Source: Candidatus Omnitrophota bacterium
GTDB taxonomy: Bacteria; Omnitrophota; Gorgyraeia; Zapsychrales; Fredricksoniimonadaceae
Reading direction: 5' to 3'
DNA: 41,764 bases
NCBI GenBank assembly: GCA_013285735.1
Contig: JABDGZ010000013.1
Coordinates: 136-41,899 of the forward strand
Both the position numbers and the translations under genes were made by a program. This document shows positions 4,021 through 41,764 of the stretch, in pieces (position 1 is the stretch's first letter; every line of letters begins with the position of its first letter). The notes beneath the pieces were generated by a model. It was not told the DNA's origin, ran no database searches, and saw nothing but the letters and a program-made list of their open reading frames with translations.

Positions 4021-5024
4021 AAGTCTTACTTGTTGGTTATCACAATCCGCATTTTGTAAATACCATAGTCCTTCGAGAGAAGGCCGTGGGTTATTTAGGA
4101 CATGAGGCAATCTTTTTTGATGATGCCAGGTATATTATTCCTGGAAGAATAAGATCGAAGTTTCCAGTGTTGCAGCAATGGGATTTGGCACAGTTGAATC
4201 ATTCGTTAGTGAAGATGGCCCAAGAACAGAAACCAGACTGTTGCCTGGTCGTGGGCGGGCAGAACATATGGCCTCAAACAGTTTCCAACATAAAAGAGAT
4301 GGGGATACCTATTGCTTTGTGGACCACGGATGTTCCTGTTGATTTTAAGAATATCCTTGATTCAGCGAGCGTTTATGATCATTTATTTTGCGCGGGAACA
4401 GAAGCATTAGATATTTTTCAGGCACGAGGTTTTAAAAATGTATCCTGGGTCCCTTTTGGATGTGACCCTCATTTTCATCAACGTCTTTCATTGAGTGAAA
4501 GCGAAAGAAAGCAGTACTCCAAAGACATTGTTTTTGTGGGATCTTATTATCCTAACCGTGCAAGCTTGCTTGAGAGTATTGCAGATCTTGATTTGGGCGT
4601 CTGGGGACCGTATTGGCAAAAGTTAGCCGCTGATTCTCCTTTAAAGGATAAGGCGGTCAGCATTAAGATGAATTATGATCAATGGGTGCGGATTTTTAAT
4701 GGTTCTAAAATTAATATCGTCATCCATTATCAGGACGGAAAAACACCTTGTCATCAGGCCAGCCCTAAATTATTTGAGGCCATGGCTTGCGGGAGTTTTG
4801 TCTTGACCGACCGGCAAAAAGACGTACAAGCCTTGTTTAAAGATAAGGAGCATCTGGTATTTTTTGATGGCCCAGAGGATTTACGTTCCAAAATTAAATA
4901 TTATCTTGATCATGAGGATGAGCGTAAGCGTATTGCCGACGCTGGATATGCAGAAGTCAGCGCCAAACACAGGTACCAAGATCGTCTAAAGAAGATACTA
5001 GTGCATTTTCAAATTAATTCTTAA
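4017..5024 (+). CDS. CgeB-like glycosyltransferase
   Basis: MKVLLVGYHNPHF, FVGSYYPNRASLLE, SPKLFEAMACGSFVLTDRQKD typical of CgeB/Glyco_trans_1_2 proteins. Confidence 0.8.
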   Translation: MKVLLVGYHNPHFVNTIVLREKAVGYLGHEAIFFDDARYIIPGRIRSKFPVLQQWDLAQLNHSLVKMAQEQKPDCCLVVGGQNIWPQTVSNIKEMGIPIALWTTDVPVDFKNILDSASVYDHLFCAGTEALDIFQARGFKNVSWVPFGCDPHFHQRLSLSESERKQYSKDIVFVGSYYPNRASLLESIADLDLGVWGPYWQKLAADSPLKDKAVSIKMNYDQWVRIFNGSKINIVIHYQDGKTPCHQASPKLFEAMACGSFVLTDRQKDVQALFKDKEHLVFFDGPEDLRSKIKYYLDHEDERKRIADAGYAEVSAKHRYQDRLKKILVHFQINS

Positions 5025-5026
5025 TA

Positions 5027-5054
5027 CTGGATTCCCGCTTTCGCGGGAATGACA
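5027..5054. repeat. 28-bp palindromic repeat CTGGATTCCCGCTTTCGCGGGAATGACA (dRS3-like), copy 1
   Basis: identical to 28364-28391; ATTCCCGC/GCGGGAAT palindrome. Confidence 0.85.
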
Positions 5055-10138: not shown

Positions 10139-10280
10139 GGATGACACTGGTATATTGTTCTGGCTAAAATCTTTGTTCACGCTGGTAACGTTGTTTCCCA
10201 AATTTGAGGTCACGCGTTAAGTCCAGCCGAATGCAACGGTCCAGATTTTTATACGCCAGAACAACATACCAGTATCATCC
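10139..10280. repeat. long imperfect palindrome, element A1 (142 bp)
   Basis: arms GGATGACACTGGTATATTGTTCTGGC and GCCAGAACAACATACCAGTATCATCC pair with 2 mismatches; inner stem GCTGGTAACG/CGTTAagtCCAGC. Confidence 0.8.
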
Positions 10281-10314: not shown

Positions 10315-10535
10315 AGGCTGATACCGATGTATTAGTTATGGCTAAGGTTATGGTATTGTTTCCGAAACATTCAGGGATTTTTGGCCAAATGTCTGCGAGG
10401 ATTTACAACAATTTTTTTCCAAATGAAGAGAATCTTTAGAAAAAAATTGTTGTAAACCGAAGCAGACGGCCAAAATATCCCGTTTCGGAAACAATACCAT
10501 AACCTTAGCCATCTACAACATATTGGTGTCAGCCT
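10315..10535. repeat. long palindromic element, family B copy 1 (221 bp)
   Basis: 31-bp exact arms ATGGCTAAGGTTATGGTATTGTTTCCGAAAC (10338-10368) / reverse complement (10482-10512); tip CCAAATGAAGAGAATCTTTAG. Confidence 0.9.
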
Positions 10536-26463: not shown

Positions 26464-26716
26464 CATTGTAAGTGATAAGTTTGTTCTTTTTGCGACTGGG
26501 CTCCGCCGCGTTTTTTCCTGCCTGCTTCTGCAGGCAGGACGCCAAAGGTCTCATTTTTTTCGGTGGCTGAACAACTCGCCTTGAAGTTCTCTGGAACTTC
26601 AAGGCTCGAACAGTTCAGCCATCCCTCGGCCAAAAGCCTCGGGATGCCCTCAAAAAATGAGCTGCTTTGGCTAAAAACGCACAGTCGCAAAAAGAACAAA
26701 CTTATCACTTACAATG
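26464..26716. repeat. structured palindromic element, family C copy 1 (253 bp)
   Basis: termini CATTGTAAGTGATAAGTTTGTTCTTTTTGCGACTG / CAGTCGCAAAAAGAACAAACTTATCACTTACAATG; nested internal hairpins; inverted copy at 31767-31994. Confidence 0.92.
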
Positions 26717-26885: not shown

Positions 26886-28361
26886 ATGGAATATATGGAA
26901 TTAATTTTTGAAAAATCTATAGCAGGGCGTAAGGGGTTTGATTTTGGGGCTTCGGATGTTCCTGTCCATGTGCACATCGCTTCCAAATATGCACGCACCC
27001 AGGATGCTCCTTTACCGGAAGTGTCAGAACTTGACGTTGTCCGCCATTATACCCGTTTGTCCCAAAAAAACTTTTCCATCGATACGCATTTTTATCCCTT
27101 GGGCTCATGCACCATGAAATATAATCCCAAGTTTACCGAAGCACTTGCACGCTTGTCGGGATTCACCGACCTGCATCCTTTGTTGGCCCAGTTGTCGGGC
27201 GGCGAGCAATGGACCCAGGGGGCGTTGCAGATTTTGTATGAGTTAGAAGAGTGGATGTGTGAAATGACCGGCTTTAGTTATTTTACCATGCAGCCTCTGG
27301 CTGGCGCTCACGGAGAATTGACCGGCATCATGCTCATGGCGGCGTATCACAAGTCTAAAGGCAACAGTAAGAAAAAATATGTCATCATTCCTGACTCTGC
27401 GCACGGTACCAACCCTGCTTCTGCCGCGGTGGCTGGTTATGAAACAATTTCTATTCCGTCTAATAAAGACGGCGGGATGGATTTAGAAGCGCTTAAAGCG
27501 GCTGTTAATGATGAGACAGCCGGCTTGATGATGACCGTGCCCAGTACCTATGGTGTATTTGAACCCAATATCAGCGAGATCGCCAAGATCATTCATGCGG
27601 TCGACGGTATTATGTATTATGATGGGGCCAATTTAAACGCGGTCTTGGGGCGCTCCCGTCCGGGTGATATCGGCTTTGATGTGATGCATATCAACACGCA
27701 TAAAACCTTTACAACACCTCATGGCGGCGGCGGACCTGGTGCCGGGCCTGTGGGTGTTAATCATAAACTTTTTAAATTCTTGCCGATCTCACGGGTGGTC
27801 AAGCGCAGCGACGGCATTTATATGCTGGATTATAATTATCCTGAATCCATCGGGTATATTTCTTCATTTTATGGTAACTTTGGTCTTTTGGTACGTGCCT
27901 ATGCTTATATGTTGATGTTGGGCAAGGAAGGTTTGAGGGCCACGACCGACCATGCGGTGCTGAACGCCAACTACATCATGAAAAAATTGGAGCCCTATTA
28001 TAAAATTTGCTTTGACCGTATCTGCATGCATGAAAGTGTTTTTTCAGCCTCACGGCAGGCGGAACGCGGGGTGCATGCCATTGATATTGCCAAATTCCTG
28101 ATCGATCAGCAGATCCATCCGCCGACGGTGTATTTCCCCATCAGTGTCCCTGAGGCGATCATGATTGAACCGACTGAAACTGAGTCCAAGCAGACCATGG
28201 ATCATTTTATTGAGAAAATGATCGAGGCTGATAAACTTTCTCAAACTGACCCCGCCGCATTTAAAGAATTTCCCAAGACCATGCCGGTGGCCCGGCCGGA
28301 TGAAGTTAAAGCAGCAAGGGATGTTAAAACTAGTTTCTTTTTAACCTCTGAAAAAGAATAG
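26886..28361 (+). CDS. gcvPB: glycine dehydrogenase (decarboxylating) subunit 2
   Basis: FYPLGSCTMKYNPK, QPLAGAHGELTGIMLM, PDSAHGTNPASAAVAGY, DVMHINTHKTFTTPHGGGGPGAGPVGV. Confidence 0.97.
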   Translation: MEYMELIFEKSIAGRKGFDFGASDVPVHVHIASKYARTQDAPLPEVSELDVVRHYTRLSQKNFSIDTHFYPLGSCTMKYNPKFTEALARLSGFTDLHPLLAQLSGGEQWTQGALQILYELEEWMCEMTGFSYFTMQPLAGAHGELTGIMLMAAYHKSKGNSKKKYVIIPDSAHGTNPASAAVAGYETISIPSNKDGGMDLEALKAAVNDETAGLMMTVPSTYGVFEPNISEIAKIIHAVDGIMYYDGANLNAVLGRSRPGDIGFDVMHINTHKTFTTPHGGGGPGAGPVGVNHKLFKFLPISRVVKRSDGIYMLDYNYPESIGYISSFYGNFGLLVRAYAYMLMLGKEGLRATTDHAVLNANYIMKKLEPYYKICFDRICMHESVFSASRQAERGVHAIDIAKFLIDQQIHPPTVYFPISVPEAIMIEPTETESKQTMDHFIEKMIEADKLSQTDPAAFKEFPKTMPVARPDEVKAARDVKTSFFLTSEKE

Positions 28362-28363
28362 TT

Positions 28364-28391
28364 CTGGATTCCCGCTTTCGCGGGAATGACA
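28364..28391. repeat. 28-bp palindromic repeat (dRS3-like), copy 2
   Basis: CTGGATTCCCGCTTTCGCGGGAATGACA identical to 5027-5054. Confidence 0.85.
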
Positions 28392-31565: not shown

Positions 31566-31752
31566 GCGCGCATATGAGATGAGTTGATATTATTTTTTCA
31601 GCACGGGATATTTCCGCCGTCTGCTTCGGTTTACAACAAAAATGTTCTAAAGATTCTCTTTATTTGGAACATTTTTGTTGTAAATCCTCGCAGACATTTG
31701 GCGGAAAATCCCTTATTGTGCTGAAAAAACAATATCAACTCATCTCAAACGC
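31566..31752. repeat. long palindromic element, family B copy 2 (inverted relative to copy 1)
   Basis: shares GTCTGCTTCGGTTTACAACA, TGTTGTAAATCCTCGCAGACATTTGG and tip CTAAAGATTCTCTTTATTTGG with 10315-10535 in reverse orientation. Confidence 0.9.
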
Positions 31753-31766
31753 ATGAATTATTGCAT

Positions 31767-31994
31767 CATTGTAAGTGATAAATTTGTTCTTTGCAGCGAC
31801 TGTTCGTTTTTAGCCAAAAGTTTTTGTTGTTGAGGGAAGCCTGAGCCGAAGGGCGAAGGCTGGCTGAACATGTTCGAGACTGATCTGCCAGAGGCAGAGC
31901 AGGCGAGTTGTTCAGCCACCGAAACAACAGAGAAGCTTTTGGCGTTAAAAAAACGAAGCCAGGAGCAAAAAGAATAAATTTATCACTTACAATG
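31767..31994. repeat. structured palindromic element, family C copy 2 (inverted relative to copy 1)
   Basis: CATTGTAAGTGATAAATTTGTTCTTT ... ATAAATTTATCACTTACAATG; internal GGCTGAAC..GCGAGTTGTTCAGCCACCGAAA shared with C1. Confidence 0.92.
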
Positions 31995-32002
31995 CCTCGT
32001 GC

Positions 32003-32059
32003 CTGGATTCCCGGAGCAACTGCGAATGTCCGGCATGAGGACCTTTCGCGGGAATGACA
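32003..32059. repeat. interrupted copy of the 28-bp dRS3-like repeat
   Basis: CTGGATTCCCG + 29 extra bp + CTTTCGCGGGAATGACA. Confidence 0.7.
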
Positions 32060-32083
32060 TATTTTTTTATTAAAGAAAGTGAA

Positions 32084-39552: not shown

Positions 39553-41764
39553 ATGTCTAATAAAAAAAAGCGTTTAAAAATTGATTCGAGACCTGGCCTA
39601 AGGAAGAATTTTGCCATTTTGGCATTTTTCTTGACGGGCGTCTTTGTCTCTGCGGCCTGTACTTCAGCCTATGCGCAATTTAGCGGCGGCGATGAAAGTT
39701 CTGGTGACGCCCAGTCTTCCATTGGTAGTGATATCTATGGCGGTGGTGCGCAAAATAATTCTCCTTATTCTACCTCTGGTTCCACCGGAACCTTGTCTTA
39801 TGGAACAGCAACTAAACTTGTTTTTACAGTCAGCCCTTCAGACACCAATCACTCATTTCCATTTACTCGCCAACCTGTCGTAGCCGTTGAAGATGCGTAT
39901 GGCAATGTGGTTGCCAATGATAATACGGATCAAGTGACTATTGCTATTCTTAGTAATCCTGGTAATGGTACTCTGATGGGGACAACCACTGTTACAGTTG
40001 TCAATGGTTTAGCTCAATTTACCAATTTGGCTGTTAATGCGGCCGGTCAACTATATTCTCTTCAAGCTACCTCCGGAAGCCTTACTCCTGGAACATCGGC
40101 TACTTTTAATATTAATCCTGGTACAGGTCCAGTAGCTTCAGCTGTCTGGGATGCCTCTGGCTCTACTCCTGGTTATTACATCTATATATGGTCTGCCAAT
40201 GATAATCAAAAAGAACCGTTTGATGCCTCTCTTGATTCTTGTAGTATAACGGTTTTTAATCCGGATGGGACAACCAATACGAGCGGTAGTTCCCTTTCTT
40301 TTTCAGTTGATACGACCAATAACTGGTGTAAGTCAACTACTACATGGACACCATCTAGTTTAACTCAAGGAAGTTTTACAGCTACTGTAACAATCACTGA
40401 TCCAGGCGGAGATCCTTGCGGCGGCCCAACGTCATGTAATGCTACAGTCACTCTTGGTTTAACTGGCGGAGGCACTGTCACCCAAGATTCTTTCGGAACC
40501 ACCATTAACTGGGAAGACATCGGAGTCATCAAACAAAAAACCGATACTATCAACTGGCAGGATATCGGAGTCATTAAAGCAAATACAGCAGGTGAAAATT
40601 GGCAAGATATTGGCGTTTTAAAGTCTAATGTCAGTACAATTTTAGCTTTTACGACGCAACAAAACAGCTTCGGCATCAATTGGCAGGATTTCGCCGTGGA
40701 ATCAAAAATTGGTGTTAATTGGCAAGATATTGCTTCTTTGACTACTAAGGGCATCAACTGGAATGATCTTAACGTCCTTTCGAATGTTGGTATTAACTGG
40801 AATGATTTTAGTGTTTTAACTAAGCAGGGGATCAACTGGCAAGATGTGCAAAAACTTTATAGCGCAGGTGTAAATTGGAATGATTTGGTGGTGTTGGGTC
40901 GTGCTGGTATCAACTGGGATGATTTGGCGATTTCGTCTAAAACAGGCATTAATTGGTACGATATGGCGGTTATGTCTGGTGTAGGGATCAACTGGGGTTC
41001 AGGAACTACTGGGATCAATTGGTATGATTTGGTTACCATGACCCGTGCAGGTGTTAATTGGTATAATTTAGACATTATGGCCTCTAATAATATTAACTGG
41101 TCTGATTTTCATGTTTTGAGTGATGTGGGAATTAATTGGTATGATTTTAATGTTTTAAGTAATGCTGGCATTAATTGGAGTGATTTAGGTGTTTTAGGTA
41201 AGACAGGGATTAACTGGAGCGATTTTGGGGTCTTGAGCAAAACCGGAATCAACTGGAGTGATTTGGGAGTGTTAAGCAAGACAGGCATTAATTGGAATGA
41301 CATGAATGTCTTGACCCGTACCGGAATTAACTGGAGCGATTTTGGGGTATTAAGCAAGTCTGGAATCAATTGGAGCGATTTTGGAGTATTGAGTAAGGCA
41401 GGCATTAATTGGAATGATATGGGAGTTTTAACTAAGACAGGGATTAACTGGAGTGACTTTGGAGTATTGAGTAAGACTGGAATTAATTGGAATGATCTTG
41501 GAGTTTTAACAAAAGCGGGAATCAACTGGAATGATTTGAGTGTGCTCAGCGATGCTTCGATAAATTGGAGCGGTTTAAATGTGTTAAGTGATGCGGGGAT
41601 TAATTGGAATGATTTTGGAATTTTATCGAAAGCGGGAATTAATTGGAATGATTTTACTGTACTTAGCCGTACAGGAATTAATTGGAATGATTTCAATGTC
41701 TTAAGCCGCACGGGCATTAATTGGAATGATTTTGGTGTTTTAACTAAAGCAGGAGTCAATTGGA
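39553..41764 (+). CDS. large secreted repeat protein (3' end beyond window): signal peptide, Ig-like domain(s), then [IV]NWxDhxVL tandem repeats
   Basis: uninterrupted frame from ATG 39553 to the window end (absent from the ORF track, no stop): MSNKKKRLKIDSRPGLRKNFAILAFFLTGVFVSAACTSAYAQFSGG...; Ig-like PVVAVEDAYGNVVANDNTDQVTIAILSNPGNGTLMGTTTVTVVNGLAQFTNLAVN. Confidence 0.93.
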   Translation, partial: MSNKKKRLKIDSRPGLRKNFAILAFFLTGVFVSAACTSAYAQFSGGDESSGDAQSSIGSDIYGGGAQNNSPYSTSGSTGTLSYGTATKLVFTVSPSDTNHSFPFTRQPVVAVEDAYGNVVANDNTDQVTIAILSNPGNGTLMGTTTVTVVNGLAQFTNLAVNAAGQLYSLQATSGSLTPGTSATFNINPGTGPVASAVWDASGSTPGYYIYIWSANDNQKEPFDASLDSCSITVFNPDGTTNTSGSSLSFSVDTTNNWCKSTTTWTPSSLTQGSFTATVTITDPGGDPCGGPTSCNATVTLGLTGGGTVTQDSFGTTINWEDIGVIKQKTDTINWQDIGVIKANTAGENWQDIGVLKSNVSTILAFTTQQNSFGINWQDFAVESKIGVNWQDIASLTTKGINWNDLNVLSNVGINWNDFSVLTKQGINWQDVQKLYSAGVNWNDLVVLGRAGINWDDLAISSKTGINWYDMAVMSGVGINWGSGTTGINWYDLVTMTRAGVNWYNLDIMASNNINWSDFHVLSDVGINWYDFNVLSNAGINWSDLGVLGKTGINWSDFGVLSKTGINWSDLGVLSKTGINWNDMNVLTRTGINWSDFGVLSKSGINWSDFGVLSKAGINWNDMGVLTKTGINWSDFGVLSKTGINWNDLGVLTKAGINWNDLSVLSDASINWSGLNVLSDAGINWNDFGILSKAGINWNDFTVLSRTGINWNDFNVLSRTGINWNDFGVLTKAGVNW
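40501..41764 (+). repeat. coding tandem repeat, ~32 NW-motif units, mostly 39 bp/13 aa (consensus GINWNDFGVLSKT)
   Basis: Ile/Val codon of the motif recurs every 39 bp from 41014 through 41755 and 40753-40987; one 27-bp unit at 40987-41013; first three units spaced 48 bp. Confidence 0.95.

Follow-up and report, generated by a model that had tools for sequence, protein, structure and literature searches.

A family of non-autonomous hairpin elements with constant internal bulges and covarying stems in Candidatus Omnitrophota

Introduction

Palindromic interspersed repeats of 100–200 bp that lie between or in genes include ERIC, Correia/NEMIS, and the Rickettsia palindromic elements, all of which have been described mainly by their conserved sequence. 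The attC sites of integrons are recognized as single-strand hairpins through extrahelical bases, and the sequence of their stems is variable. REP sequences and REPINs are 20–50 nt long, carry a GTAG or CGTC tag, and are often accompanied by a RAYT gene; in Escherichia coli, a mismatch bulge in REP is required for recognition (PMC3116915, PMC8266576, PMC3733652). Apart from mobile elements, template switching between inverted repeats has two products, homogenized arms and inverted spacers (PMC8604942), and multiple compensated changes occur together with inverted loops (PMC8794818).

In this study, we analyzed a 41,764-nucleotide stretch of DNA (the window; GenBank assembly GCA_013285735.1, contig JABDGZ010000013.1, positions 136 to 41,899), which is contig 13 of the 1.84-Mb, 71%-complete draft genome of a Candidatus Omnitrophota bacterium, and the palindromic B family of elements represented in it. 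Like REPs and REPINs with RAYT, the B elements are intergenic, lie downstream of genes, form hairpins, and have no gene. Unlike them, each B element is a single rod of 165–220 bp with neither a tag nor a link to Y1 transposases, and its constant part consists of internal bulges, whereas that of REP/REPIN is a fixed stem. ERIC, Correia/NEMIS, and the Rickettsia elements as described differ from the B family, in which the stems vary and the unpaired positions are kept, and which has been detected in Omnitrophota alone. In contrast to integron attC sites, B copies are dispersed singly in spacers, and the RYYYAAC/GTTRRRY box pair was found in none of 75 copies. The template-switch mutation of quasipalindromes (PMC8794818, PMC8604942) shares with the B family arm homogenization, multi-base compensated changes, and loop inversion. 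It is a mutational process, whereas B is a family of elements; here template switching seems to have affected a dispersed repeat many times over, and its results can be seen when copies within a single genome are compared. Interspersed palindromic repeats are a known kind of sequence, but one that unites internal bulges that are constant, stems that are free to vary, and clear marks of arm copying is apparently new.

Results

Two B elements, B1 (221 bp by repeat search, positions 10315–10535) and B2, were located in the window (Table 1), and these were the sole copies in the source draft genome. An earlier sequence-only reading had assigned to B1 perfect 31-bp arms, a core with a GAGGA/CCGAA loop and an AAAT bulge, and a tip; each of these was present in the sequence as described, and the arms were confirmed by the repeat search as well. 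The perfect arms lie within 54-nt arms that are 85% complementary. Absent from that reading were the 5-nt bulge ATTCA and a bulged T on the opposite strand. The predicted folding energy of B1 as RNA was −130.1 kcal/mol, compared with −44.1 kcal/mol for dinucleotide shuffles (z = −19.1), and as single-stranded DNA its z value against shuffles was −18.4. The B element is predicted to fold as one long asymmetric hairpin. A methyltransferase gene lies downstream of B1. B2, flanked by a DUF2304 gene and a family 2 glycosyltransferase gene, repeats the core in the reverse orientation with other outer arms and another inner stem that are nevertheless self-complementary, in agreement with the earlier description. 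Its 35-nt arms are 91% complementary, its core shows 87% identity with that of B1 across 117 nt, and its fold as RNA gave a z value of −19.6 against dinucleotide shuffles.

Table 1. Positions of the parts of B1 and B2 in the window
Feature	Position	Strand	Remarks
B1 left outer arm	10315–10368	+	10338–10368 perfectly complementary to 10482–10512
B1 5-nt bulge ATTCA	10369–10373	+	Fold and tally; most copies ATTCA, ATTAA, AATAA, or AATCA
B1 lower core stem GGGATTTTTGGCC	10374–10386	+	Partner 10468–10481, T10476 bulged; fold
B1 4-nt bulge AAAT	10387–10390	+	Fold and tally; AAAT or AAAA in 67 of 75 copies
B1 middle stem GTCTGC	10391–10396	+	Partner GCAGAC 10462–10467; fold
B1 asymmetric internal loop, 5' side, GAGGA	10397–10401	+	GA mismatched, GG base-paired, A bulged out
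B1 inner stem, 5' side	10402–10420	+	Covaries with its partner among copies
B1 tip	10421–10438	+	Several unrelated tips in the family
B1 inner stem, 3' side	10439–10456	+	Fold
B1 internal loop, 3' side, CCGAA	10457–10461	+	Fold and tally
B1 middle and lower core stems, 3' sides	10462–10481	+	Fold
B1 right outer arm	10482–10535	+	Sequence and repeat search
B2, second copy	31566–31752	−	Outer arms 31570–31604 and 31718–31752
B2 loop (plus-strand letters)	TTCGG 31625–31629, TCCTC 31685–31689	−	Element on minus strand
B2 bulges (plus-strand letters)	ATTT 31696–31699, TTATT 31713–31717	−	Element on minus strand

The B core was found in six of the seven genomes of the genus, with about 60 copies in total and up to approximately 28 matches per genome; G005, a 94%-complete genome of the same genus, contained no copy. 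Of 83 genomes from the order, 19 contained the family according to a covariance model of 181 positions built from 51 copies; most of these 19 belong to a single family, and one (G056) belongs to another. A search of the GTDB species genomes with the two-sided loop pattern gave 42 stretches, and all but one were from Candidatus Omnitrophota. The lone exception, from Eubacterium (L097), lay in apparent coding sequence and formed no hairpin, and was rejected as a chance match. A viral origin was also rejected, since IMG/VR gave zero B matches. In the collections searched, the family is restricted to Omnitrophota. No description of it was found in the partial literature library that we searched, and the family is apparently undescribed.

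Along the core strand, the variable outer arm is followed by the 5-nt bulge, a 13-bp lower stem with the bulged T opposite, a 4-nt bulge (AAAT or AAAA), a 6-bp stem, a GA/GAA mismatch beside GG-CC pairs with a bulged base, the inner stem, and the tip. The elements are approximately 165–220 bp in size and contain no gene, and the paired span in the trimmed fold is 164–178 bp. The outer arms are wholly different between subfamilies, each being self-complementary, and have no common terminal repeat. In distant relatives, the bulges occurred in an unchanged order on stems that were largely different, and extra internal loops and longer tips were present in some. Several copies were reduced to the lower stem by internal deletion; in L061:1498-1533, L065–L067, and L072:2836-2941, the lower stem and arms were left, and at some of the deletions short direct repeats, for example GGCCAAA, are joined. 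A protein-coding core was rejected on inspection: although one frame is readable in some copies, the variant stems alter the residues freely.

The loops had been regarded as fixed, and this was true of the AAAT/AAAA bulge and the ATTCA-type 5-nt bulge, both of which were near constant, whereas the GAGG/CCGAA loop varied. CAAGG/CCGTA was a common variant of the latter, and the loop was lost in a few copies. The letters GAGGA and CCGAA were read correctly, but the earlier reading did not recognize in them a GA/GAA mismatch flanked by GG-CC pairs. A replaced internal loop is common to L055, L056, L057, and L059, four copies from a single genome that were yet amplified or preserved, which indicated that the GA/GAA loop is not strictly required. 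The conservation of the bulges suggested a role in recognition, for which these unpaired positions are presumably conserved.

In the 51 copies, 96.5% of the pair cells were paired, compared with 77.9% after shuffling, and 42 of the 63 pairs showed changes on both sides. The covariation score was 0.474, which none of 500 shuffles reached, against 0.143 for shuffled copies, and there were 584 two-sided cells against 168 in the shuffles. When the partner columns were slid by one to three positions, pairing fell to 41–49%. The stems change and stay self-complementary across the 51 copies, as had been proposed from B1 and B2 alone, and no copy with the full conserved core had non-complementary arms. 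Strong support for a repeated element whose stems covary and whose loops are constant came from the genus search, the covariance model, and these pairing statistics.

G-U pairs accounted for 2.1% of pairs, compared with 11.7% in folds of shuffled copies. There was no excess of G-U on the modelled strand, and G-U asymmetry was discarded as a pointer to a functional strand because the modelled strand has fewer such pairs, not more. Changes were counted on a nearest-neighbour tree of similar copies (41 edges, at most 30 differences), which across diverged copies is a rough stand-in for the real genealogy; its edges carried 163 two-sided Watson-Crick changes, where 28.8 were expected with independent arms, and also 69 changes that passed through G-U on one side and 102 that broke a pair. 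Transversions made up 77 of the 163 two-sided changes. A stepwise compensatory route through G-U gives transitions only, so these 77 changes cannot have arisen by that route. The G-U intermediate has been discussed together with template switching as the alternative (PMC8794818). The small number of G-U pairs and the finding that nearly half of the compensated changes were transversions pointed to template switching between the arms as the process by which, at the DNA level, the stems are probably kept paired.

The family bears marks, visible in the sequence, of local conversion from arm to arm, of inverted tips, and of flipped cores. In L026, the exact complement of the opposite arm stands in place of the mismatch loop, which is thus healed to TTCGG, and the AAAT bulge is retained; in L060 the tip was exactly inverted. 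Where the outer ends of a copy (X and Y) could be recognized, the core was oriented one way nine times and the other way four times. With the two-sided transversions, these cases show that both arm homogenization and spacer inversion are represented in the B family.

Comparison of related genomes at matching gene junctions showed a copy in one genome and a short spacer in its relative for L101/L090, L107/L083, and L077/L114, and two L096 copies showed the same present/absent pattern against the window. The arms were missing from the short spacers, which indicated that they arrived with the element; local target duplication was rejected as their source for the same reason, since the arms were not found in the empty sites. 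The possibility that the arms are mere local inverted duplications, which the first description had itself raised, is likewise contradicted by their subfamily specificity and by their absence from empty sites. No target duplication was seen in these comparisons, in which the empty sites come from other species and the spacers are too diverged to place the junction. L080 and L087, two genomes' copies at one shared gene junction, were left out as an age-matched pair, as their tips differ.

The copies occupied tight spacers, at a median of 28 nt past the upstream stop codon. With gene calls taken as mechanical open reading frames, 68 of 74 copies lay between co-directional genes, a share (92%) similar to that of control gene pairs (87%, p = 0.32), and their orientation relative to these genes was antisense in 50 and sense in 18 (p about 0.0001). 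This bias may come from replication direction or from an effect on transcripts; arm copying itself gives no account of it. Motifs of the CACGC, ACGCA, and GCATG types were enriched directly outside the arms (CACGC, 23 against 2 in the more distant flank), for example at L054, L048, L104, L090, and window 31566–31752, and might mark the true ends of the element.

Discussion

The B elements are a real, well-defined family in Omnitrophota and, being non-autonomous hairpin repeats, are best classed as a new family of that type. We favour, with moderate confidence, the explanation that B is a non-autonomous interspersed element of intergenic spacers whose stems are re-copied from arm to arm and whose bulges serve as recognition marks. 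During replication, the nascent strand would switch template between the arms (quasipalindrome correction), leaving the stems complementary. A mutation in one arm would thereby be copied to the other, and selection would not need to fix two separate mutations. Template switching would also tend to erase the bulges, which may persist because copies without them spread less; the constant bulges would then be likely recognition marks for a putative trans-acting enzyme on the folded single strand. The template-switch reading is drawn from the pattern of changes, and strong selection for the folded form could yield part of that pattern.

Such selection would be expected if B were a structured RNA in operon transcripts, such as an mRNA stabilizer, an RNase III site, or an attenuator, in which selection on RNA folding keeps the stems. 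The location of most copies between co-directional genes shortly after a stop codon, the orientation bias, and the strongly conserved structure with non-canonical GA mismatches would all suit an RNA, but the co-directional share does not exceed that of controls, there are hardly any G-U pairs and no surplus of them on the modelled strand, and transversions are frequent among the compensated changes. The depletion of G-U and the transversions favour template switching over selection. In addition, tips are replaced or inverted, a copy can be missing from the same gene junction in related genomes, and no Rfam family was matched at the gathering score, at which the window gave only a tRNA. We consider a structured RNA unlikely, though it deserves some weight. 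A retron or other reverse-transcribed RNA was rejected because most copy-bearing genomes have no reverse transcriptase; no RVT_1 match was found in the copy-bearing G000, G001, G002, G004, and G006. That the hairpins are ordinary terminators or local inverted duplications, alike by chance, has a negligible probability. Terminators typically occupy short spacers after stop codons, but a 117-nt core is common to dozens of loci with BLAST and model E-values to 1e-40 and below, the family occurs in many genera, and the arms are absent from empty sites; the shared core refutes a chance resemblance.

The mobile element itself could be of a more familiar type. Multiple copies without a gene, sites with and without the element, and the motifs enriched just beyond the arms are also expected of a MITE or of another non-autonomous element that derives from a conventional insertion sequence, in which double-stranded ends are recognized and the bulges are incidental. 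The outer arms nevertheless differ completely among subfamilies, the constant parts are internal and unpaired, no target duplication was seen in spacers too diverged to place the junction, and no gene-bearing relative with B ends, or partner element with a gene between the halves, was found in full or partial matches from 33 genomes, many of them incomplete drafts; this derivation therefore has only a small chance of being correct. We regard as improbable a REPIN-like element mobilized by a Y1 (RAYT/TnpA-REP) transposase, even though REPINs, too, lie between genes, form hairpins, and show compensatory changes in their spacers (PMC3116915) and, in the genus, five of six copy-bearing genomes had Y1 genes (the exception being the window's own genome, which is incomplete) and G005, which has no copies, had none. 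Across the order, Y1 genes occurred in 13 of 19 genomes with the B family and in 50 of 64 without it, and were lacking in four copy-bearing genomes that are each over 90% complete (G015, G017, G024, and G056). No B element lay near any of the seven Y1 loci in the genus, GTAG was not enriched at the hairpin feet (12 of 150, against 25 in shuffles) and CGTC was found at 8 feet against 9 in shuffles, and the length of B far exceeds that of REPs. Y1/RAYT was thus rejected as a partner for lack of association with the family, and the transposase link suggested by the sequence-only reading was not borne out, neither by a coding element with B ends nor by the distribution of Y1 transposases.

If arm-to-arm copying maintains the stems of the B family, strong covariation, usually read as proof of a functional RNA, can come from arm copying at the DNA level. 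The dozens of similar hairpins in single genomes are a natural set in which the contributions of selection and template switching to the upkeep of pairing can be measured. An enzyme that read the bulges alone would provide a new example of mobile DNA being recognized by its shape. It is conceivable, but more doubtful than the explanation favoured above, that B belongs to a class of mobile elements read almost purely by the shape of the folded strand, with constant bulges and distances and drifting stems, that the palindrome family C is a sister, and that several such families share one putative enzyme.

Family C (window 26464–26716 and 31767–31994) has a branched fold with variable, self-complementary arms and contains a GAGG ... 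CCGAA-like motif. It is multicopy and was matched in each of the seven genomes in the genus, among them G005, the genome without B. The B and C families may have a common origin, which is so far only a lead. Two genomes carry, in the same order, first a B copy and then one of C type, at L091 4857–5265 and window 31578–31956, at apparently unrelated loci, and in L062 (G004:C154:26516-27559) a C-type palindrome adjoins a B remnant without its left half, possibly through nested insertion. Directly upstream of B1 lies palindrome A (10139–10280), with 26-nt arms and a folding z value of about −7 to −8 against shuffles. The window also contains short spacer repeats based on GGATTCCCGCTTTCGCGGGAATGACA at 5022–5054, 28359–28391, and 32043–32074, and a long array of 39-nt units (13 codons, approximately AGINWNDLGVLTK on the plus strand) at 40591–41764 that runs off the window end.
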